In this document: positions 18,066-51,880 of the stretch, piece by piece
How positions within the stretch are numbered: position 1 is the stretch's first letter
Layout: every line of letters starts with the position of its first letter
Source: Massariosphaeria phaeospora
Lineage: Eukaryota; Ascomycota; Dothideomycetes; Pleosporales
NCBI GenBank assembly: GCA_011032825.1
Contig: JAADJZ010000009.1
Coordinates: forward strand, 124,001-188,000
Direction of reading: 5' to 3'
Length of the DNA: 64,000 nt
Notes under the pieces: generated by a model
What the model saw: the letters and a program-made list of their open reading frames with translations, nothing else
Told to the model about the DNA's origin: nothing
Databases searched by the model: none
Made by a program: the position numbers and the translations under genes

Positions 18066-18592
18066 GGTGCTGGCTGACGTGTTTGGGCGTGGGTGTCGTG
18101 GGTAGAGGGTTGCGGTAGAAGCGTGGGATGATCGCCCAATTAGCGGGCTTGGCAGGCACGATGGCGGTACAGCCAATTAGGTGGGGAGAGGGGATTATCG
18201 CTTTCTAGCAACGCAGCATCCTCGATATTTCTATTGAGGACCCACGGCAGCGAGTCTAATCCACCGAATAGCGGTAGAAAATTATGCCTTGCATGTTTGA
18301 TTCGGCTGAAGAGTAAGACAGCCGGATCGAAGGTTCAGCCGCATAGCGTCATCCCACGCTCTTGGCTGCAGCTCCTGCAGGAACCGCGCGAGGCAACGCG
18401 GGGCAACGCGGGGTAGTTTGCACTGAGCGGAGCGACTTCCCATTGGCCGGGCAGGGGCTCTGTGCCAAGCACTGTCGACGACAACCCAAGTTGCTGCCTG
18501 CTTAAAAGCTCTTCTCTGCCCCACTTCACCTCACAACACCTCACAACACCTACCTCGCAACCACACACCTGCGCCGGCCGAGTCTACGATCA
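18066..18592. other. Divergent promoter region
   Basis: 527 bases between divergently transcribed genes at 18065 (minus) and 18593 (plus). A repeated CCTCACAACA run lies at ~18529-18550, just before the plus-strand start. No gene is seen. Confidence 0.4.
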
Positions 18593-19876
18593 ATGTCGAT
18601 GTCCAACGTTGAGGGCTCGCCATTCTCTGATCACGCCCGTTCGGAACGCCCCTGGACTCGTGGTATCGAGTTGCCCGATTCTGGTCACACTCGTTCGGAA
18701 CCCCGCTGGACTCGCCCAGATACTCCTGAAATCGAATTGACTGATTCTCCGACTCCGTCGCCTCCGCAGGACGTCTTCAAGGTCTTCAAATTAATTTCAA
18801 GCATCTATCAAGGGCTCCACAATTCAGAGATCGACGAATACCGCTTTCCCTTCTCGCCTGTCCAATTCGAACAGTTGCAGAAGGAGATTTCCCGGGATTC
18901 GAAGCTCGAGGACTGGGTTGAGTGCAAGTTGCGCTGGGGCTACAGCTCACTGAATGGCGAGCTCGTTATTCGTATGGCTCAGACAATTCATGAGATTGTT
19001 GGGGGTAAACTTGCAGACGTACTCTTCGACGCATTGCGTGCATGCGCCCAGGCTAGTCGCCATGTCACCAACATCGCCAAGTGGTATTCATCCCCCGTCA
19101 AGCTTAGTGACGACTCAGACAAAAGGCATCCCGACGCCTCATTTGCGTATGCGTCAGCCACCCGCCAGCCATTGGTCGTAGAAGTCGCGCATTCGCAGAA
19201 GTACGAAGATGCACGTAAGAAGGCCGAGTGGTACGGTTTCGGCTCTGGGGGTTTGGTTCGCACCATCTTTCTCGTGGACATCGAGTACTGGAACCCTACC
19301 ATGCGACAGAACCCTCCGCCCCGAGTCCGCCGCATCACCTACCAGATCTACCGCATGCGAAATATTCCTCTCCCCAGTGGGGGATTCCGGCTTGAAATGG
19401 AACGTGATAGCGTGCTTCTTCGCGACTCAAGCGGAATCGTCACTCCGGGCAACACGTCCTTCAAACTTTCCGATTTCGTCCCGCATCGCAATTGGAGTGC
19501 GACCGATGTTGATGCCGACATTACGCTTCCACATGCGGACTTTATCGCCCTGATTGAGGCCGCGGAGAAAGTACAAGCTAAGCAGGATAGCGGATTCTCC
19601 CCTGTACCGGTCCCAGCTGAGATAGTGCGTCTTCCGAAATCGCCTCCTACAAAACGATATCGCGACGATGATGATGACGAGGACAACCCCGAGGTGATAC
19701 CGTCGAAGAAGCCAAGGGTCTTTCGAGGAGAGGAGCCAGCCAACCTGGTTGGGCAACAAGATGGTGCGAACCAGGTGGAGCAAGAGGAGGGCGACCAGGA
19801 GGCTCAAGAAGAGGATGGCAGTGAAGAGGAACCAGAATCCGACACTGTCGACGGTGAGACTGATCAGGATGCCTAG
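18593..19876 (+). CDS. PD-(D/E)XK-like fungal protein (paralogue 1)
   Basis: A single 427-codon open frame starts at an ATG right after a C-rich leader. The core reads HPDASFAY, then LVVEVAHSQKYEDARKKAEW, then LVRTIFLVDIEYW. This matches the fungal family with a PD..E-V-x-x-S-Q restriction-endonuclease-like core, where the Lys of ExK is replaced; nuclease activity is therefore uncertain. A helical domain precedes it (WVECKLRWGYSSLNGELVIR). The C-terminus is strongly acidic with KKPR-type basic patches (possible nuclear localisation). The first 50 residues hold an imperfect duplicated RSE(R)PxWTR..IEL(P/T)DS unit. A related, damaged copy lies downstream at 20718-22297 in the same orientation. 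Confidence 0.72.
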   Translation: MSMSNVEGSPFSDHARSERPWTRGIELPDSGHTRSEPRWTRPDTPEIELTDSPTPSPPQDVFKVFKLISSIYQGLHNSEIDEYRFPFSPVQFEQLQKEISRDSKLEDWVECKLRWGYSSLNGELVIRMAQTIHEIVGGKLADVLFDALRACAQASRHVTNIAKWYSSPVKLSDDSDKRHPDASFAYASATRQPLVVEVAHSQKYEDARKKAEWYGFGSGGLVRTIFLVDIEYWNPTMRQNPPPRVRRITYQIYRMRNIPLPSGGFRLEMERDSVLLRDSSGIVTPGNTSFKLSDFVPHRNWSATDVDADITLPHADFIALIEAAEKVQAKQDSGFSPVPVPAEIVRLPKSPPTKRYRDDDDDEDNPEVIPSKKPRVFRGEEPANLVGQQDGANQVEQEEGDQEAQEEDGSEEEPESDTVDGETDQDA

Positions 19877-20717: not shown

Positions 20718-22297
20718 TTGCCAAGGTATTGCCTATTCAGGCAGCACTTCCTATTTGGCTTAGCGTTCGACCACTGCCGATTACGCACCGCCTCGACCCT
20801 CTCATATCCACAAATTCGCGAATCAGCGACACAACCCGACACAAAGTCCGAATTCAGAGACCCTCGGTCTCTATCTCAGCCAGTTCAACACAATGAAGAG
20901 GTCCAGAGCACACACGTTGGTGATAAGAAGGGAGTTGCGGAGGTGCGAGAGACAGAGGAGGGCCCCATCTCAAAGCCAGAAGAGTACGGGGTTGACTTCC
21001 TCTTTCAAGACGGCGCTCCAGTCCCAGCAGGGCTTCACAAAGCTCTTCAAACTATAGCCCGGATTAGCGACGAGTGGTACCGCGAGGAGATGCAACGATA
21101 TGTTGGAAAATTCATCTACCCGTACCCCAACCAAGACCTGGACTTTCACACCATTCATATTTCCCGTACTGGATGGGATGATCTCCATCGCTACATCGAG
21201 AAAGTCCCTCACCTCGATGTCTGGGTCGAACACAAACTCCGCTACGAATACAGCGTTGAAGACTCCCAACTCTCTATCAAATTCGGCACAGCGATGCAAC
21301 AGCACACCACCTTTGGGCTTGTCAACTATCTGAAAAAAAAATTCGGCATCGCGAAAAAGCTAATCCGATACTTGCTCCTGCTCTTGGAAAACTTATGCTC
21401 CGCACGGCTCCCCCTGTATTTGGACTAGGGACTGACCCTGGATGGAAGTATCCGGATGCTGCGGCCGTGGACTTTGACGAGAGCTGGTCTTGCAAACCAG
21501 CCTTCGTTATCGAGGTCGGCTTCTCTCGTCAGCCGAGCGACCTGCTCGAGAAAGCCGGAAAGTACTTCTACCACTCAAGAGGGGCGATCCGCACCGTCCT
21601 TGCAGTAGACATCGAGTTCTGGGACGCCCAACAGCGCAAAGAGGCGCGGATCTCCGGCAGGTACGCTTGTGTGGGCTACGAGATCTATCGCTACGAGCCA
21701 GTACTTCGATGTGCGAGGCGCAATGAGAGGAGGGATCGAAAATACTTCAATGTCAATCACTATGGATTCCAGGGGGTGAGCAAGTCGGACGGCACGGCGT
21801 GCAAAGGATCTGTCGAGCTGCGCCTTTCAGACTTCTTATCCCGGGATACAGAGGCCGAGCTGAACCTTCCGCTGCTCCTAAAATTTGGTGTAATTGGAGC
21901 CGTGGGAGAGGAGATAGGCCACACGCAGCATGACGATACCAACAGGGACAGCGATGGTCGGTCCCAATTCGAGGTGGATACCTCCAGCGTTTCTATCGAC
22001 GACATGAATGAACTCGTCGCAAAGTTATACGATGAGATGACGTCTGGGGTTCTAAAGGACAGACTACGAAATGATACTGGCGAGCAGGACATAATGGATT
22101 TGCCGATAACGTTCTCTCACGAGGCCTTTGTAAAGATCTTTCACAGAGCAGAATCACGTCAGACGTCATCGGACGAGTATTTGGCGAGTATTAAGACTGA
22201 AGGCGGAGAAGGCAGGGCTGGTCAAGACGAAGTTGGCGGGAGTTCAGGGACAGTGCGGACCGCGGAACCTCCGCAGAAGAAGCAGCGGCGAGAATGA
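20718..22297 (+). pseudogene. PD-(D/E)XK-like paralogue 2, frameshifted at an A9 run and 5'-incomplete
   Basis: The first frame (to 21428) encodes WVEHKLRYEYSVEDSQLSIK, matching WVECKLRWGYSSLNGELVIR of the upstream paralogue. The second frame (from ~21342) encodes WKYPDAAAV, FVIEVGFSRQPSDLLEKAGK and IRTVLAVDIEFWD, matching its nuclease-like core. The two frames meet at a run of nine A (21333-21341); a one-base length difference there would make the reading continuous. No ATG opens the first frame, and the preceding 300 bases are AT-rich. The tail is acidic and ends PPQKKQRRE. It is either a decaying tandem duplicate or a real gene hit by a homopolymer assembly error plus an unseen first exon. 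Confidence 0.65.
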
Positions 22298-32137: not shown

Positions 32138-33709
32138 ATGGCGAGATACGATCTGCGAGCGCGCATGCGGGACCCCACGACGGGTAGCATGCAGAATAAT
32201 CCGAGAATAGCAGTGGGTTGCTGGGCCTGCCGTGCGTGTCGCGCTGGTCGTCAAGCCGGTAAGCAGCCATGGTCGACCCCGCCGTGTGCCCAATCGCCAT
32301 GGCCGCAGAGACAACAACGTCCATTAACATTTATTACTTGCAGCAGACCTGACTCGGGCCGAGCGGGTCGCTACTAGAGCTACTAGAAACACCCCCACCC
32401 CGTACGTGTGTGAGCTCCACAGTCGCCCGGTGGGTCGAGCGGGTAAGCTGTCACAAGAGCATCCACCAACGAAATGGCGACTGATGCGTCGATAACAGGA
32501 AGGCACAGTCGAGCCGCGCACGCCCTTCCTATACTTCCCAAAGCCAACAGCTCGTCTCTATCACGGGATCCGCCTATCAAACGCGAACCAGCGGGTTTCT
32601 CGCTCACGCCCTCACATACACCTGCGCTCGTCAAACGGGAACCAACTGTCAAGCGGGAGGCTTCGGTCAAGCGGGAGGCTTCGGTCAAGCGGGAGGCGAC
32701 GGTCAAACAGGAAGCTGCCGTTAAACAGGAGTCTGCCGTCAAACGGGAGCCGACGATTGAACAAGAATTTACGGTCGAGCGAGAGGTTACGGTAAAACAG
32801 GAGGCTACGATTAAAAGGGAGCCGACGATCAAACAGGAGGCTACTGTCAAAAGGGAGTCGATGATGGAACCAGTCGTGAAGAGGGACACAAGCGAACACA
32901 ACAACTCGACGATGAAGGTTGAGCCGATGATCAAGCGGGAGCAAGATACCAGGCGTGAGCTTGTTGTGAAGCATGAGAAGATCGAAGACCGCAAACCGGC
33001 AGTGAAGCAAGAGCTGAGTATCGAGCGCGAGCCGACGGCAACCCATCGGACGACGATAAAGCGCGAACCGGCAATCAAACAGGAGACGATGATCAAGCGC
33101 GAGCCCCGTGTGAAGCATGAGCTAGATGAGGAGCGCGGGCTGATGGTGAAGGAAGAACCGAACATCAAACTTGAGCCGGAGATTCGGCAGACGTCAACGA
33201 TGGAGCGCGAGTTCATGGTCAAGGAAGAGCCCAGCATCAAACTTGAACCGGCTATTCGACATGCGTCAACGATGGAGCGCGAGATGGTGAAGGAAGAGCC
33301 GAACATCAAGCTTGAACTGGCTATGCGGCATGCGTCAACGACAGACCGCAAGCCGATGGTGGATCACGAACCCAACATCAAGCGCGAACCGACGTCAAGG
33401 ACGGAGCACAAGCCGTTCATAAAGCGGGAGCCGGATACCATTTGGCCGAACGTCAAGCTCGAAGAAACAGTTAAGCGTGAAATTAAGCATGAGTCGATAT
33501 CCGCTTCCTCACTCATCAAGCGCGAATCTTTGACTCGATCCGCCCCTTCCTCGGACCTAGGACTCGACGAAGCTTGGGAGTACCCCGAACGCAAGCGGCG
33601 AAAGCGCGATATCAAACCCGAGCTCGAGACGTCTGCCCGAAATATCAAGGACGATGCCTGGCGCGGATTCTCCCTAGCAGACATCCCGCTCAAGGTGGAG
33701 GACTATTGA
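32138..33709 (+). CDS. Protein with ~34 SUMO-consensus (ΨKxE) motifs
   Basis: Exons 32138-32258, 32344-32442 and 32499-33709 join in phase to 476 residues; both donors are GTAAGC. Acceptor 1 is a tandem TTGCAGCAG, so one residue may vary. If unspliced, ATG 32474 would still give 411 codons. From residue ~95 on, almost the whole chain is built of VKREP, IKQEA, VKEEP and IKLEP units: about 34 matches to [VILM]KxE, the acceptor consensus for SUMO conjugation by Ubc9. A 23-24-residue higher-order unit (MVKEEPNIKLEPEIRQTSTM type) is repeated three times at ~33140-33350. A basic ERKRRKRD near the C-terminus is a probable NLS, and the N-terminus has CWACRAC. It is probably a disordered nuclear scaffold heavily open to sumoylation. 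No known family. Confidence 0.75.
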
Positions 33710-34374: not shown

Positions 34375-35662
34375 ATGAGCGAGATGAACGAGATGAACGA
34401 GATGGACGACGCTACATCCGTTGACAAGACTCCTCCAGACGGGCAGGCTACTACCAGTATCCATAAATCTACTGCCCCGCCTAGTAAGGAGACGGAGGTT
34501 CCGTCCCTCGACACCGACCCTGCGTTCGTCGAAGAGCTCTGGCAAGAAGTGCGCGGCATGTCGGCATTGTCGATAAAGAGCCAGACACCGAAATCGAACC
34601 CTGCCCAGCCTACGAAAGTTTCCACAACCCACTCGGAACCGGAGTCAGGTGAGAGTCTACATTCGGGCCCGTCCCACCCGGACTTTGACCAGCGCGTCCT
34701 TTCAACCACATGGCATTGTGATCGATTATCAACTTCGTGTTATGCAACCTTTCGTGTATTTCGGCACCAGCGAACGCCCCGCTGAGTACAAACAATCGCC
34801 AGGCCTGGACCATGCCACAGTATTTCTTGCCTTCACGTCCACTGAGTTTGAGAGGCACCAGAAAGAATTCGACCACATGTTACTCTTGCGCCACGAGGAT
34901 CCTCAGTACCGCGTCTACGTAATGGTACACTTCCTCAAGGCCGAATGGCGTTCCAAAATGGTCATCCAGGATGGTCGCTTCTATGTCCAGTTCTTCACTC
35001 AACATTCCTTCGAGCCTGCATGGGATAAGTCGTACTGGAAAGCGCCGCCTCGTGTCAAGCCTTCACATGCGCCTGCTCCGTGGACCTGGGATATCCAACC
35101 TGATTTCACTTACTGGCTCACAGCCCAAGACTTTAGCGTCTCAGAGTGTATCGTCGCGGCAGTGACCTACGTCGAGTGCTTCTCGGCGAGCCCCTATTTC
35201 ACTATCGAGTTTGAGAACGACACTCACACGTTGAGATCTCAAGATGAGCGGGGCGATGTCCACAGCCCGGCGGTCAAACGGCTGGCGGCGGCTGGTGCAA
35301 TCGCGCTCTACAACCGCTTTCTACTCTGGGAACGTGCCCGACAACACGACTCGACGGATTGGAACGTGACTCCCGAAGAGACGATTCGCCACTTCGGCTT
35401 GACTGTCCACCAGCACCTATACACATTTTGGGTCTTCAGGCCGCATTTCGATGTGCATTGGAAGTGGGCCGGTTGCGGCATGGCGTACCTTACCTTTGGG
35501 AAATTCAATTCTAATACATGGGGGTTGATACGCTTCGCGGATTGGATCAACGAGATTCATCGCTGGGGAATGACGGTGCATGCGCCGGCTGTGAAGGAAG
35601 AAGTCAACGTTTGCTTGAAGGCGGAGCGACCTATTAGGCTATGGCCGATTGTGCTTGCTTAG
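34375..35662 (+). CDS. Hypothetical protein, probably two exons, junction unresolved
   Basis: The first frame (from ATG 34375) encodes an acidic, Ser/Thr/Pro-rich leader containing SEMNEMNEMDD and is left near 34648 at a GTGAGA donor. The main frame to 35662 encodes ~310 residues of folded-looking sequence (YFGTSERPAEYKQSPGLDHA, HQKEFDHMLLLRHEDPQYRV, FTQHSFEPAWDKSYW, and a Trp-rich FWVFRPHFDVHWKWAGC). The obvious intron 34649-34692 leaves the frames one base out of register, so the exact splice is unknown; an internal ATG at 34742 is an alternative start. No domain is recognised. No stop codons interrupt the main frame. Confidence 0.55.
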
Positions 35663-36377: not shown

Positions 36378-37067
36378 CTATTCCTCAGGACTACTAATTC
36401 GAGTAGCTTCTCCCTTCTCAACTGACTTTTGAGCACAGTACCGCTGGTAGAGGTAAGTGAGGCTACAATGGCTCCAACAACTAGACTGGCGTTTGCATCT
36501 ACATTTGGGGAAAGCGTGTTCTGAAGGAAGAGGCCGATCTAGGTCTAGGACAACGTCTGCCGCTTTGTAAAGAGCTCTGGCCAATGTAACAAACGCAGGC
36601 CCATGACCGGCACACGCATTCCATCTCCACCATTCTCCGTTATGTTCAAACTTCGTCCACTGACTAACGAGATGAATAGATAGGTATGCGCATAGCAGTC
36701 GTTGGGCCAGCGTGCCAGAGCACTTACCAAAGCAAAGGTAGAGCTTGGAATAAGCATGTATCTGTTCGTGCAAAAGAATGCTGAGGATATGATGTGCTAA
36801 CCCGTCCGTGTTACCGTCGGCACAATCCAAGTATAATGTCTTTGGATACAAGCGGATCTTAGCGACGATCTTAGCGCCCCCTCCGCGTAGTAGAGAAGTC
36901 ACGCCATATACCTTCAGGTTCAGGTTCGATTCTGTCTCCCAATTGTACACTGTATGGGAAGCTAGAAGTCCCTGGAAGAAGATAGCATCAAGCGGCCGCG
37001 CTAGTGCGGATAGTTCGGGGAGGTCTTTTGGCAGCGTTCTGCATGGACGGGGGCGGAATCCGCCCAT
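36378..37067 (-). CDS. SprT-like zinc metalloprotease domain protein
   Basis: 229 codons if started at ATG 37067; the frame stays open to about 37097. SILLHEQIHAYSK carries the HExxH zinc-metalloprotease motif, and GHGPAFVTLARAL downstream supplies the third histidine, the spacing of SprT-like domains (as in Spartan/Wss1-type DNA-protein crosslink proteases). The C-terminus (CRCKRQSSCWSHC) resembles the Zn-ribbon-like tail of fungal SprT family proteins. The first ~20 codons fall in a ~70-bp segment also found, inverted, at 42645-42715 beside hAT-2, so the true N-terminus may be recent or misread. The Copia element inserted only ~95 bp upstream of the ATG (37162), probably into the promoter. 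Confidence 0.7.
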   Translation of the reverse strand: MGGFRPRPCRTLPKDLPELSALARPLDAIFFQGLLASHTVYNWETESNLNLKVYGVTSLLRGGGAKIVAKIRLYPKTLYLDCADGNTDGLAHHILSILLHEQIHAYSKLYLCFGKCSGTLAQRLLCAYLSIHLVSQWTKFEHNGEWWRWNACAGHGPAFVTLARALYKAADVVLDLDRPLPSEHAFPKCRCKRQSSCWSHCSLTYLYQRYCAQKSVEKGEATRISSPEE

Positions 37068-37156
37068 AGCCCATGGAAAAAATCCATGGATTTCCAAGGG
37101 CGCCGCGCCGGATATCCCGCCTATAGTAATTTGTATAGGCTAGCTATCTGTACAGT

Positions 37157-44344: not shown

Positions 44345-47198
44345 ATGCCTGTAACTACTAGAGCGCAGAGTCGTCGACAAGCTAGAGAGTTACAGCTTGC
44401 TCGCAAACCGTCTAAAGCAATCCATCAACATCCTAAAAGCACAAGATCTACTGCTTATAAGCAGCCTCCTACGTTAGAAGAAACCCAGTCTTGTTCACAG
44501 AGCCTATCTCAAGCCTCCAGCGATAGAAGCCCATCTCAAGAGTCCAACAATAGGAGCCTATCTCAAGCCCCCAGCGATAGAAGCCCATCTCAAGAGTCCA
44601 ACAATAGGAGCCTATCTCAAGCCTCCAGCGATAGGAACTTATCTCAAGCCTCTAGCAACAGACGCCCGTCTCAAGCCTCTAGCAACAGGAGCCCGTCTCC
44701 AGCCTGCAGCAACAGGAGCCCGTCTCCAGCCTGCAGCAAACAGCAATCACGTCAAATACCTGCTAAGGCTGGTTTAATCAATCTCCCTAGTGCTATCGAA
44801 AAACACTTCTGGCCTTGCCAAAAGTGCTCCTGCCAAGAAGGGGTGTTCGAAGGTCTAGTCAACAGCTGCATTATATGTAAGCATACTATGGATGACCATG
44901 AGCCGGATCTCAACAGCATCTGGAAGCCGAGCTGCGGATACCTATGCATGCGAGAAAAACTAGTCGCATCCCTTTTACAGCATACACGTGAATACGGAGT
45001 AATGGTAATTCGTGCAACGCCTATGGTTGGCAAAACTTCTCTCCTTAAACTACTCGGCTACCACATTCTACACAACGAGCGAGATCTAGAGCCTGTCTTC
45101 GTTGAATGGGAAAAGAGAGAAAAGCGCAACGATCAACCATATGGGGAATTTCTCCGGCGCCACAGAGAAAGCTGTCAGAGAGACAATGCAGAAGCTCGCC
45201 CTCGCAATAAGAATGCCCGAATAATATATCTCATTGATGAGGCCCAGAACTCATACGAAGAACAAAGCTTCTGGTCACAGTTGAAAGATTACCACGCTAC
45301 AAGACAGCAGGCTTTGTTTGTACTTGTTTGTGTCTTTGGTGCTACTGGGGTTTCTTCTTATTACGACCCGGACATTGAGTCACAGGCACTGAGAATGCAT
45401 GCTCTACATCGTATAGAACTACGCCCTTCGACATCCTCTAGTCTGTGCATGCTCCTCCGGCAAGACGAGGTAGCCTTTATGGTTAACAAATTTGCTACTG
45501 TTCATGGCTATCAGCTTCACAACAGGGTTGCTGAATACCTTTATTCCGCCACTAATGGCCATCCAGGGATGGTTGGGCTGCTTCTTGACCATGTAGCAAA
45601 TATGACTAAGGGCGTAAGTTATGTTCCTATTAGAATTTACGTTTAACTAACTTTTAGTAGGCTATGATTAATGTACCTCAGACGTTGACGCTAGAGTTCT
45701 TCCATAACTTGCTTGTCGAACGTGAGGACAGCTATGTGGAATGGCTTACTAAGTGGGGTAGAGGGGTCTGGTCGCCTTATTGTGAGCAGATGGTTGAGAA
45801 TGCTCTCCGATATTTCAAGTACCGCCACCTCAAGCTCCTGGACATTAAAAAAGCGCTTCGCGAAGTTGCTATTCAACCTCAAGGCCTACTTCGCATACAG
45901 ACAAACTTTGACGCTTTTGCGTTCTGCCACAAATGGGGATTACTACATACTGAACAGCCAATAGTTGGAAGCGGAGAGACCTTGTTTACCTTTGCATCCC
46001 CATTACATCGACGGGTCGCCTACCGCCGCCTCTATCCAGGCCGAGAACCAGATGCTGTTGTAAAAAATACAAGTCTCCAACAGGTTTGTACGAATGCTAT
46101 TGCTCGATTTAGCCCAGCAGCATTCCAGAACCGCACGCATTCCCGGTCTGATAGGAGCTGGGGCATCCCAGAAGCTGCATTTCAAGATGAGCTATATTGC
46201 TGTTTAAGCCATGAGCTTAATTATCTTCCTATTCTGTCGCAGTACTCTCACACTAAAGACGGCAGGATTGATCTCTTTGTTGCGGCTCGAAAATGGGGGA
46301 TCGAAATTCTACAATGTGGGAGTAACACAGCACTTACTAAGCATATTTCGCGATTCGCACCCGGAGGAAATTATCACAGCTGGGACCTTATGGACGACTA
46401 CATTATCTTAAATTTCTGCACTAGGTCTGCACTCGCAAGCATCAAAATCTCAGGTACGTTTTCTTGCTAACTACTTATAAAAAGGTAATGCAAATAAGAA
46501 TACATTACTAACTAACGTGTTAATTAGATAAAACGACACAATCGAACCTCTTTCATGTAATTATCGAGCCCGACAAGCTGAGTGCGGAAATCTATACGCA
46601 TGACAAACAGCTGCATATGTCTTGGTCCTTAAGCGAAGGGAGACAACGAAAGAACTTGGACGACTTCTGCGGCATTGACGAATCACTTTCTAATGAAGAC
46701 AGCGAAAGGATGTTGACCCAAGAAGATCTAATAGAAGATAACCACGCGATGACAGAAGTGATAGAATGGATGAAGGAGCGAGAGGAGGAGCGAGAGAAGG
46801 AGATGAAGGAGCGAGAGAAGGAGATGAAGGAGCGAGAGAAGGAGATGAAGGAGCGAGAGGAGGAGCGAGAGAAGGAGATGAAGGAGCGAGAGGAGGAGCG
46901 AGAGAAGGAGATGAAGGAGCGAGAGGAGGAGCGAGAGAAGGAGATGAAGGAGCAAGAGGAGGAGCGAGAGAAGGAGAGGAAGGAGATGAAGGAGCGAGAG
47001 AAGGAGATGAAGGAGCGAGAGAAGGAGATGAAGGAGCGAGAGGAGGAGCGAGAGAAGGAGATGAAGGAGCTAAAGCTGCAAATTGAGCAAAGAAAGGAGG
47101 AACGGCGGCTACAGAGAGAACAAGGTGAAGACCAGAACGAAATAGCGCACGTGCAGGACAAGTCAGTAAAGGGAACAGGCTCGAAAAGGAAACGGTAA
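44345..47198 (+). CDS. Crinkler-type P-loop NTPase / REase-like nuclease protein
   Basis: Three exons (44345-45613, 45661-46453, 46528-47198; introns 47 and 74 nt, both with CTAAC) give 910 residues without a stop. Order: a basic start; Ser-rich 12-residue repeats (~50-140); a treble-clef-like CQKCSC..CIICKHTMDDH (~158-185); P-loop ATPMVGKTSLL (~224); Walker B IIYLIDEAQ; a helical NTPase lid; then a nuclease-like domain with HTKDGRIDLFVAARKWGIEI, the GRIDF..KWGIE core of Crinkler (CRN/CR) effectors, continuing HISRFAPGGNY and DDYIILNF; finally a long charged coiled coil of KEREKEM units. CRN-type NTPase-REase proteins are known as eukaryotic effectors and have been traced to transposons. Here the gene sits inside a transposon-borne insertion. 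Ubiquitin-like N-terminus absent. Function inferred only from family. Confidence 0.72.
44497..44745 (+). repeat. Tandem 36-bp repeats coding Ser-rich 12-residue units
   Basis: Units of the type AGCCTATCTCAAGCC plus TCCAGCGATAGG repeat about seven times with small changes, encoding SLSQASSDR / SPSQESNNR series. Confidence 0.85.
46768..47070 (+). repeat. Tandem GA-rich repeats coding the KEREKEM coiled coil
   Basis: Units built from GAGCGAGAGAAGGAGATGAA (and a GAGGAGCGAGAG variant) repeat about fifteen times. All indels are multiples of three, so the frame is kept. Other frames are open over the same stretch only because of this periodicity. Confidence 0.9.
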
Positions 47199-47470: not shown

Positions 47471-47746
47471 GGTCCTTCAAGATTCTAGGTGTTGATAGCT
47501 AGCGGAGGCGTAAAAATATAAAATATAATATACTCTCCAGTTCGAATCCTGTAAAATTACTTTCTCGCCCTCGCTCAACCGGCCGTATTAGGCCTAGCCG
47601 CCCCGGAAAATCGATTACGCCGCCCCGAAATATCTCGCGACCCAAGATTTTCGACGCGCTGAGATTAACGCGCACTCACTACGTTCGCCCACACCCACGA
47701 AAGTACGTATGTTTATCGCGATTTTTCGCCCAAACTGACCTCGCAG

Positions 47747-50254
47747 ATGAATCAGCAGCTTAATGAAGTATTTGGGCGGGTCCTTGACTCCCAGTCCACG
47801 CAAAACGCCGCCGGCGCAGCCTCCTCGTACCAGGCAACCGATGCACAGTCAACATCTGACGCGCCACTCGATCTCGATCCTCTCGCTGTCTCTGCCTCCG
47901 CCGACGATGATGAGGACTATGAAGGCCTTGTTTGGTCGCGCGTACCTAATTTACAGAAGCCTCAATACGCTGCTAAACGTGCCTTAACAAGCTGGGTTTT
48001 TCAATACGGCTGGCGCGTATACCATCGCAAGCATGAAGCGCTGTATTGGCTGTGCAAATACTGCCATATACACAAGCAAAACGGGCTGTTTAAAGTGGCA
48101 ACTTCAACCTCTGCTATCCATCGGCACCTCGAGGCGCGGCGACCTGGCCACGGAGTCGGCAAAGATGGCCCAATTCGGTTCAAGAAGGAGGCATCTATCA
48201 TCTCCGCCCTACAGCGACAGGGCGTTGATGTGAGTCAAGAGGTAGCAAACGCCGTCGCCGATACCTTTTCGGCGCCCGCTTTTCAGCAGGCGCTTATCGA
48301 GTGGGTGGCTGCTGATAACCAAGCTCTGCGCGTTGTAGAGGTGCCTGCCTTTCGAGATATGATCAAGGCTGCTAATCCGCTCGCTGAGCGCGTTTTGTGG
48401 AGCAGCCACAACACTCTCCGGTCGCACATTATAGATGAATACAACGCCTACCTACCCGCCGTCGTGAGCTACATAAAGGCAGCCAAATCCGCTATACACG
48501 TATCCTTTGACAACTGGACCTCATACGGCGGCAAACGCGCTATTACCGGAATCTGCGTACACCACTTGAACGCAGCGGGTCAACAAGTAGATTACTTCCT
48601 TGGCCTGCCGACGCTATCGGGCGACCACTCTGGTTCAAATATCGCAGCAATCGTGAGCTCAACTCTCCACCGGTTTCATATACGAAAAGAAGCCCTAGGT
48701 TACTTTGTGCTTGATAACGCGACAAACAACGATACTGCCGTCAACGAGCTAGCGGAGGAGTACGGCTTCAACCCGAGCCACCGGAGATTGCGCTGCAGCT
48801 GCCATATACTCAATCTCGCTGCCCAAAACGTTATCTTTGGCCAGGATCGCGACGCGTTTGAGAACTCGCAGGAGAATTTAGTAGTACGTATTGCCCTTTC
48901 CCTTCCTGCCGCCGTCTCTCGCGCAGCACCTGCTAACTCGCCCCAGGCAGAGGAACAGTACATGAACGAGTGGCGCAAAGCTGGCCCGCTAGGCGTACTG
49001 TTTGATGTCATCGCCTCAATCTGTACGCCGCAGGCGCGCGAGCTTTTGGAGGGATACCAGCGAGATGAGGCAACGTCGCTAAATCTCACGAACTTTACGC
49101 CAAGAGAACTCAAAAAGCCAGTCAAAACTCGCTAGAACTCTTACTACGATACGTTTGAGCGCGCCGTCGACCTCAGGGTGCCTCTGGACGATTATATGGG
49201 CTACAAAATCGGCGAGAGCAACCGCCCCGCAAACCGACAGCGATCTCGGGCGGGAGCTCGCCCTCCGGAGGCCAGCCAGCCACGCCTGTATATACGTGAG
49301 GGAGGGCTTACTGGCAAAGATTGGGCTACTATTACTGAGTATATCGAGTTGCTCAAGCCTTTCAAGGAGGCGACTAGCTGGCTCGAAGGTCGGGGCAAGG
49401 CTGGTCGCCACGGCGCGATTTGGGAGGTTATCCCTACGTTTGAGTGGCTCCTCGCTACGCTACAGGCTCAACAGGATCGCGTAGAGGCAGTGGATTACAA
49501 CGATCCTGACGCGCCTGAGGATCACGTCAAAACAAACCTCAATCTCGCTATTAGTAAGCTGGAAAAATACTACGCCAAATTCAAAGACGCCCCGGCGTAT
49601 TACTGTGCCCTACGCCTCCACCCAGCGTACAAAAACTTTATCGATACTGCCTGGCGAGTACCCGCCGAATACGATGACGTAGATGGCCCCCATCCCCGCG
49701 AGGGGTGGCTAGAGGCAAACAACAAAGGCTTTCAATCACTTTGGGCGGGCGCTAAGCTAGCATCTAAAATCGCCGCCGCCGATTCAGCTACGCCGCCGCC
49801 TGCTAAGCGGCAACGTTTTGACTACGCCGTCAACCGTACTGAGTTTATGCTAGCCTCTATGAGAGAGGCGGAGATTGCGGAGGAGATTACTGACGAGTAT
49901 GAGCTCTGGAGCGCGGAGAAACCAATTGATCCAGCTCACAAGCTTGCTCAGCTGCCAATTGCCTACTGGTTGTCAAAGGAGCATCAATACCCTGTTTTGG
50001 CGCGGTTTGCTATGAATATATTGAGTATCCCAGCCTCAGCAGCCGATTGTGAGAGGACTTTTAGTGAATTGGCTGATCTTTTAGGCGTACGGAGACTCAA
50101 TATGAGGCCAGATTTACTATCCGCTTTACAGAGCCTCCGATCCTGGAAACGCCTTGGGATTGAGCGCTTCAAAACGCCTTACAAACCTACGAACACGTAC
50201 GATATCACTATCCATGAGATCGACGAATATATTGGGCAATTCACCAATAGTTAG
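47747..50254 (+). pseudogene. hAT-1 transposase, one amber codon
   Basis: ATG 47747 opens an 835-codon frame interrupted only by TAG at 49133-49135 (codon 463), in the segment KPVKTR-x-NSYYDTF where hAT transposases have Trp (hAT-2 reads KTRWNSYY at the same point). N-terminal BED-type finger: WLCKYCHIH..STSAIHRHLE. Catalytic region: VSFDNWTSYGGKRAITG and YFVLDNATNNDTAVNEL; SCHILNLAAQNV follows. C-terminal hATC dimerisation domain: LSIPASAADCERTFSELADL and LLSALQSLRSW. A TGG-to-TAG change explains the stop. As it stands it would yield a 462-residue truncated protein lacking hATC. Confidence 0.88.
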
Positions 50255-50550
50255 CTTACTAATCAATCCATCCAATCTATCAATCCGTCCACCCCCCAAA
50301 TCCCTAAACAATCCATTCAATCCAATCCAGGAGAGATTTCTTGTCAATCCATTCAATCCGGGGACCCGGATTGGATTGGACGGATTGTTGACAAGTCTGG
50401 TTGGATCCCAGCCCACGCCCACACATATACATCAAGCCGGGTCCCCAAGTTCAAAGCGGTTGTAGTTTGATTATGTAGCCCGCGCTTAGGAATGCTAGTT
50501 AATCTATCTTAGATTTATTAGAATCACCAGCCTCCCCGCATCAAACAATC

Positions 50551-51880
50551 TCGGCTACGTTGTACTTGCCATATCCTTAATCTAGAAGCCCAGATAGTTA
50601 TATGGGGCAAAGACCGAGACGCCTTTGAGAACGAGGACGCCAATTTTCAGGTATAATTCACCCTTTTACTTCGTCCTGCTAGTCACTTACACAAAACAGG
50701 AAGAGGAAGCGCTTAAGACCAAGTGGCGTACCTATGGCCCTATAGGCATCCTCTTTGACATCATCTTGTCAATCTCCTCCTCTCCACAGACTCATCAACG
50801 CTTCGTCGGCTTTCAAGAAGGCGAGGCTAAACGACTTAACGTACCTTTCAAGCCTCTCGAGCTCATTAAGCCGGTAAAGACGCGATGGAACTCCTACTAC
50901 AAGATCTTCTAGAGAGCTATCGTCCTCCAACAATCTGTTAACGCTTACGCCTACCTCAAGATCGCAGAATACAGAGCGAGGCCCTCTAGTGAGCCGCCGC
51001 GCAAGTTCATCACTGAGGGCGCATTGACGGGTAGTGATTAGGCTACAATCTGTAAGTATGATGCTCTGCTCAAGCCCTTTGACGAGGCAACAGCTGCTAT
51101 GCAAGGCAGAGGCTCTTCCAGTACTCACGGTGCGATCTGGGAGGTAATTGTCACCTTTAAGTGGCTGCTTGATCAACTCGAGGAGCAGAAACAACGGCTA
51201 GAAGCCATTGATTATAGCGACCCCAATGCGCCTCAGGACCACCTTAAAACAAACGTTACTGCAGCTCACAAGAAGCTTACTGAGTACTACAGTAAGCTCA
51301 ACGATTCCTCAGTTTACTACACGGCTACGATACTCCGTCCCCAATACAAGCACCTCCTCAAAAGCATGTGGGAGGTCCCCGACGATCACAACGACGAGGC
51401 TGATAGCCCACACCTGTTTAAAGGATGGTTGGTGAACAGTCACGAAGGCTTCCTTAAGCTGTGGAGGGCGTACAAAGAGGGAGCAGCTGTAAGAGCCTCT
51501 GGGCAGGCATCTCCTCCGTCAGCGGAGAGAGCAGCTAAACGGCAGAGGATAGGCCTATCTACGAGCCGTGATGAGTTCCTCCGGAGCTCTATGACAGCCA
51601 GTAAGCAGGCAGTTGAGAGATCTCTTGACAACGAGTATGACTGCTGGCAGCCTCTTTTGCCAGAGAACTCTTTTGCGGATAACCCTATAAAATACTGGGT
51701 CCTCGCTCGTACGCCTTACCCTATTCTTAGGCAGCTTGCTCTTGACATCTTATCGATCCCCGCCTCTTCTAGAGAGGGTATTCAGCGAGCTAGGGGATCT
51801 ACTCGGCCAGAGGCGCTTTCAAATCAAGCCGATGACGCTCTCCGCTCTTCAATCTATTAAGTTATAGCGGAGGATAGGCC
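50551..51880 (+). pseudogene. hAT-2 transposase, 3' half (decayed)
   Basis: Continues exactly where 43541 stops: CGGCTACG begins RLRCTCHILNLEAQIVIWGK. A GTATAA..ACAG intron-like gap at ~50652-50699 precedes EEEALKTKWRTYGPIGILFD, then KPVKTRWNSYYKIF* with TAG at ~50910, another TAG near 51040 (GSD*ATI), and a long open part to ILSIPASS. A frameshift around 51770 puts the hATC end (RVFSELGDLLGQRRFQIKP and LSALQSIK) in another frame. At least two ambers and one frameshift make it non-functional. Confidence 0.78.

Follow-up and report, generated by a model that had tools for sequence, protein, structure and literature searches.

Most SUMO substrates known carry one or a few acceptor sites, and multivalent SUMO has been studied mostly with chains or engineered polymers. 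The commonest SUMO motif is, by one published account, [IVL]KxE (PMC3395311), and by another SUMO can serve as a glue that brings proteins with SUMO-interacting motifs (SIMs) to nuclear bodies (PMC8138125). Here we describe a gene of the ascomycete Massariosphaeria phaeospora, found in a 64-kb stretch of contig C51 (the window; the genome comprises 42.08 Mb in 51 contigs), whose predicted product is built largely of tandem copies of such a motif, and we argue from its codons that selection probably acts on the motif itself.

The open reading frame (ORF) that holds the array (32447-33709 on the forward strand, 420 codons, with the ATG of the gene at 32474) contains 34 copies of [VILMF]KxE, hereafter psiKxE, in agreement with the estimate of about 34 SUMO-consensus copies in the initial annotation. 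Thirty-three of them lie in the last 371 letters of the frame (stop sign included), for which 2000 shuffles gave 1.47 ± 1.20 and at most 8; K-x-E as such occurs 34 times in these letters against 6.6 after shuffling, and the inverted E-x-K-psi occurs there 0 times against 1.48. The motif takes up 34 of the 43 lysines in the frame, and over the whole ORF the fourth residue of psi-K-x-? is E in 34 cases and D in two. Of the 33 intervals between successive motifs, 17 measure six residues and 25 a multiple of six. Among 133 non-overlapping ORFs of at least 150 amino acids (aa), drawn from 253,901 bases that comprised the window, the C14 stretch described below and 18 further stretches of 10 kb, the array gene is an extreme outlier at 8.1 motifs per 100 aa, followed by the C14 locus at 3.1 and a window neighbour, 34577-35659, at 0.83; without the array gene, the sample holds 31 motifs against 31.3 expected.

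Tandem Repeats Finder (TRF) reports periods of 18 and 72 nucleotides (nt) in the array, and these periods, with the 17 six-residue intervals, indicate that the unit copies share ancestry, bearing out the growth by duplication proposed earlier. Both repeats cited for that proposal were recovered (Table 1): the exact 18-nt tandem duplication, and the 23-24-residue unit present three times, which is a 72-nt unit whose copies differ by an in-frame indel of 3 nt. Because duplication inflates the motif count, shuffles are a weak control, and codon-level controls were used instead.

Thirteen units stand in strict six-residue register and were picked without demanding K. All 13 retain psi (as V or I) and E, and 11 retain K, the other two having E in its place. 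Codon positions 1 and 2 deviate in 5 of 78 cells of the psi, K and E codons and in 20 of 78 cells of the x and spacer codons (Fisher p 0.0018); with two silent arginine cells excluded, the non-motif codons deviate in 18 of 78 (p 0.0058). Third positions deviate equally, in 11 of 39 motif codons and 11 of 39 others. The three 72-nt copies behave alike, their six motif codons showing four silent changes and no replacement, and the other 17 codons two silent changes and nine replacements (p 0.011); the two tables combined give p 0.0022. A neutral simulation of array growth, matched for third-position divergence and run at three rates, left on average only 1.5 to 3.5 intact psiKxE units. At the lowest rate, at least 11 intact units were retained in a fraction of 0.006 of the matched runs, and at the two higher rates in no run; five or fewer motif deviations arose in 0.037, 0.006 and 0 of runs, and a gap of at least 15 between other and motif deviations in about 0.02 at all three rates. 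The codon columns and the simulation thus support selection for the SUMO consensus itself, with psi, K and E constrained and x and both spacers free to drift. Exchanges over the whole frame point the same way, as D stands in for E in only 2 cases against 34 and R never stands in for K. To this extent the earlier suggestion of selection for multi-site sumoylation holds; the SUMO-bearing lysines, and the scaffold or sponge role proposed along with them, are what we infer.

A search with the full array protein returned a single protein match at an expectation value (E) up to 0.001, P0001 (E 4e-4, 42% identity over 16% of the query); it falls on P0001 residues 230-310, and the array alone matches. 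The C-terminal 80 residues had no protein match, nor were relatives of the tail after the basic cluster (Table 1) found. Within its own genome, the array has a match at C14:235456-235905 and a weak one at C17:3495-3665. The C14 locus (C14:235528-236196) resembles the array gene in its tandem SVKNEP-type units, with seven psiKxE in 223 aa, in a basic cluster after the array and in EDY near the C-terminus. It differs in that VKNEP units alternate with VDDEP, and its match to the array protein is confined to residues 2-108 of its frame, where its array sits. The C17 match is a 98-residue open frame of T-[VIA]-E-R-K-[LP] hexamers, possibly a counter-example or an unrelated minisatellite.

The shorter arrays at C14 and in the P0001 family mean that the view of the initial annotation, that no described family is like this one, needs changing. 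The P0001 family was gathered with a three-sequence profile, and the linker was cut out in 89 of the best 120 of 198 matches; its named members (e.g. Imshaugia, Xanthoria, Sticta) we take to be lichen-forming ascomycetes. Among the matches listed, the 89 linkers hold 403 psiKxE against 25 in shuffled sequences (16-fold) and 154 tandem pairs at six residues against 0.1, with at least one such pair in 58 linkers. Neither psiRxE (6 against 7.1) nor psiKxD (11 against 8.7) is enriched, and psiKx that lacks an acid is rarer than in the shuffles (177 against 368). One position, site A, is psiKxE in 43 of 46 aligned members with ten different residues at x, its K372 and E374 being the two least variable of 75 linker columns in that alignment; one member, P0118, has 21 motifs. 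The family shares with the array protein the six-residue register psi-K-x-E-P/S/A-x, with psi, K and E conserved and x free, although x at site A is mostly K (29 of 43) and x in the array protein mostly R or Q (21 of 34). Unlike in the array protein, the array of the family connects, according to a model of P0016, a helical N-terminal part to a C-terminal beta-barrel as their linker. Five members scanned against Pfam gave no match above cut-off. We considered the array protein as a further member and rejected this, as only the array matches, and not the helical part and barrel; the family's member in this genome is instead the C31 locus, where the terminal parts are present.

The array protein itself offers few other features. 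The basic cluster after the array, reported earlier as resembling a nuclear localisation signal, is present (Table 1), and by its pattern we take it to be nuclear-localisation-like. A single SIM-like match (LPIL) was found. A Pfam scan of the protein returned no domain above cut-off and a sequence search of the PDB no solved chain at E up to 10. AlphaFold2, run on the single sequence with no alignment, gave a mean predicted local distance difference test score (pLDDT) of 42 and no residue above 70, a result that fits disorder and that a poor model would give as well. Given the basic cluster and the want of a Pfam domain, a PDB match or a confident predicted structure, the simplest reading is a multi-site SUMO platform. 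The organism appears to have a SUMO system, judging by a SUMO ORF at C49:69043-69207, whose best match is SUMO-2 (E 7e-31) and then Smt3, and by zf-MIZ domains at two loci (C20 and C10).

We therefore favour, with moderate confidence, the view that the array protein is a disordered, probably nuclear, multi-site SUMO platform whose valency is set by repeat copy number. Conjugation, disorder, nuclear location, partners, effect and the mode of array-length change are all parts of this picture that we infer. The job of the protein would be to offer many SUMO acceptor lysines: with the help of an E3 of SIZ/PIAS type, Ubc9 would attach Smt3/SUMO to several of these 34 sites, and the multiply modified protein would bind SIM proteins, thereby nucleating or adjusting a nuclear assembly or repressive complex. 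Clearance of the modified protein through SUMO-targeted ubiquitin ligases is conceivable. The array would grow and shrink by slippage or unequal exchange of the 18-nt and 72-nt units, and since its length would shift by whole units, we propose that valency can change in single steps. More tentatively, and short of calling it probable, we suggest that a SUMO platform made of minisatellite-encoded tandem psiKxE arrays recurs in ascomycetes. At least two unrelated protein frames would carry it, that of the orphan and C14 and that of the P0001 family; selection on psi, K and E would maintain the arrays, and copy number would tune their valency. On this view the window gene would be the densest case here, an orphan that is little more than platform.

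Several observations weigh against the SUMO platform. The units are duplicates of one another, and the Fisher values thus assume more independence than there is; at the level of columns psi, K and E are only the most conserved of 20 possible triples (p 0.05). No orthologue of the array protein was found in protein searches, and its constraint is measured among its own units. The lysine place is held by E in two of the 13 strict units and in 6 of the 47 psi-x-x-E frames of the whole ORF (K 34, E 6, V 3, D 2, T 1, S 1, R 0). In the 89 linkers of the P0001 family, KxE is frequent even where psi is lacking (197 against 164 shuffled) and inverted motifs are enriched (113 against 25.5); the C31 member has a K/P-rich linker without an array, with 0 psiKxE, 1 KxE and 17 lysines in its second-exon frame. 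We take from the relatives of the array that arrays come and go and that, where they are present, the SUMO consensus is kept. The C17 hexamers are similar to the window array in charge and period and lack the KxE spacing. The synergy-control pattern of SUMO sites is P-x(0-4)-[IV]-K-x-E-x(0-3)-P, and its full spacing is found at just 6 of the 34 lysines; the phospho-dependent SUMO motif was not found in the array protein. Lastly, given the size of SUMO, a spacing of six residues is probably too tight for SUMO to sit on every site at the same time.

The C31 and C17 loci, together with a growth that is plainly by duplication, are also what one would expect if the array were a charge-balanced disordered (polyampholyte) tail produced by a coding minisatellite, its KxE spacing inherited from the founder unit and SUMO irrelevant: array presence is labile within an array-bearing family, and a charge-like hexamer array exists without KxE. 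Inheritance from a founder leaves unexplained, however, why change is resisted at psi, K and E when third positions have diverged to an equal extent in motif and other codons, why K has become E six times and R not once when both are single transitions (counts that are not independent), and why a like constraint holds in the P0001 family with x taking ten residues. We consider such a tail unlikely. Less likely again is that the lysine motif is read by something other than covalent SUMO, be it an acetyl/SUMO switch at psiKxEP, non-covalent docking of Ubc9 (a decoy) or a peptide-binding domain. Fourteen of the 34 motifs are psiKxEP, a form that reportedly figures in the title of a paper, cited in PMC3395311, about how HIC1 switches between acetylation and SUMOylation. 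The conserved set of a large aliphatic residue, K, free x and E far above D is nonetheless that of the SUMO consensus [IVL]KxE, as set out in the account cited above (PMC3395311), and no analysis made here indicated another reader.

It is very improbable that the gene does not work and that the array is a chance open frame over a decaying minisatellite. The missing orthologue and the transposon-like ORFs nearby (judged by eye) would suit such a frame, and so would a synonymous codon score weakly above that of random frames (0.044 against -0.014, standard deviation 0.038; antisense ORF 0.048); synonymous codon bias is weak in this genome and by itself does not separate the array frame from the antisense ORF. 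Against it, the frame is open for 420 codons, the indel between copies is 3 nt, codon positions 1 and 2 are constrained in the motif codons and not in the others, and total codon scores set the frame, at 0.190 per codon, apart from the antisense ORF, at -0.014. How the gene begins is a separate matter. The three-exon model of the initial annotation, with a start at 32138, passes the splice rules (introns 32232-32343 and 32443-32498 give a frame-keeping example), and that ATG lies in a good start context; it is one of 155 passing models with up to two introns, none of which is singled out, so it is not established. Its putative first exon does not look coding by codon score, averaging -0.05 per codon across 31 codons where the ORF reaches 0.19, and the single-exon ATG at 32474 requires no intron. 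A left-handed beta-helix of hexapeptide repeats, suggested by the period of six with an aliphatic residue at every sixth position and by a weak Pfam match to LbH_EIF2B, the only such family to match, is most unlikely, as that match (E 0.013, 15.9 bits against a cut-off of 54) is far too low for membership, K follows the aliphatic residue, P is frequent, and neither the PDB search nor AlphaFold2 gave anything confident.

Table 1. Features of the array gene, in window coordinates.
Feature	Position	Strand	Basis
Region of the extra exons proposed earlier	32138..32473	+	Splice-model trial, codon score
Coding sequence, single-exon model, 411 aa, 34 psiKxE	32474..33709	+	ORF listing, motif count, codon score
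Strict-register array of 13 six-residue units (psi-K-x-E followed for the most part by A/P/S and T)	32630..32863	+	Residues 62-139; TRF period 18
Perfect 18-nt tandem repeat, VKREAS twice (units at residues 68 and 74)	32648..32683	+	Sequence
23-24-residue (72-nt) unit, three copies, two psiKxE each (VKEE, IKLE)	33143..33352	+	TRF, codon comparison
Basic cluster ERKRRKRD	33587..33610	+	Sequence
C-terminal tail with two further motifs (IKPE, LKVE), ending VEDY	33611..33709	+	Motif count; relative search

The surroundings of the array gene, with the AT-rich stretch described below, would fit a filamentous ascomycete. Nearby ORFs encode a NACHT-ankyrin protein, an AA9 polysaccharide monooxygenase and a DUF7924 protein, and others are, by eye, retrotransposon-like or hAT-like. 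An ORF 2.7 kb away (36378-37139, reverse strand) contains an HExxH-like stretch, and its SprT-like match is weak (E 0.0089, under cut-off). Two forward-strand ORFs, 18506-19873 and 21260-22294, are related to each other (27% over 158 aa) and by eye have basic clusters near their C-termini; the first has a weak Uma2-nuclease match (E 0.0037, under cut-off). The forward-strand ORF 46524-47198 carries a long charged repeat of REKEMKERE type with, by eye, the look of a single alpha-helix or coiled coil. From 47669 to 51860 on the forward strand lie two broken, related sets of transposase-like ORFs, hAT-like by eye, whose copies share 45% over 246 aa; they adjoin AT-rich DNA at 52-56 kb of the window, where GC falls to 29-31%, and which may consist of mutated repeats.

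If the SUMO platform is real, a natural array of about 34 motifs, with arrays of other lengths at other loci and perhaps between strains, would allow SUMO valency to be linked directly to condensate formation, repression or turnover, and its strict-register units provide a rare internal test of which residues of the SUMO motif selection sees. In its proposed mode the array protein resembles PML and other multi-SUMO scaffolds of nuclear bodies, where several SUMOs on one scaffold recruit SIM proteins (PMC8138125). PML is a TRIM protein with a RING, B-boxes and a coiled coil, and the array protein is unlike it: no Pfam match to a RING, B-box or coiled coil was seen at E up to 1 (the coiled coil was not tested separately), and we do not place it among PML-type scaffolds. 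Animal synergy-control factors carry one to a few sites. The synergy-control, or psiKxEP, motifs of these transcription factors have the same core as the array units and are often followed by proline, according to PMC3395311; the array protein differs in having 34 sites, six of them with the full P-flanked spacing.
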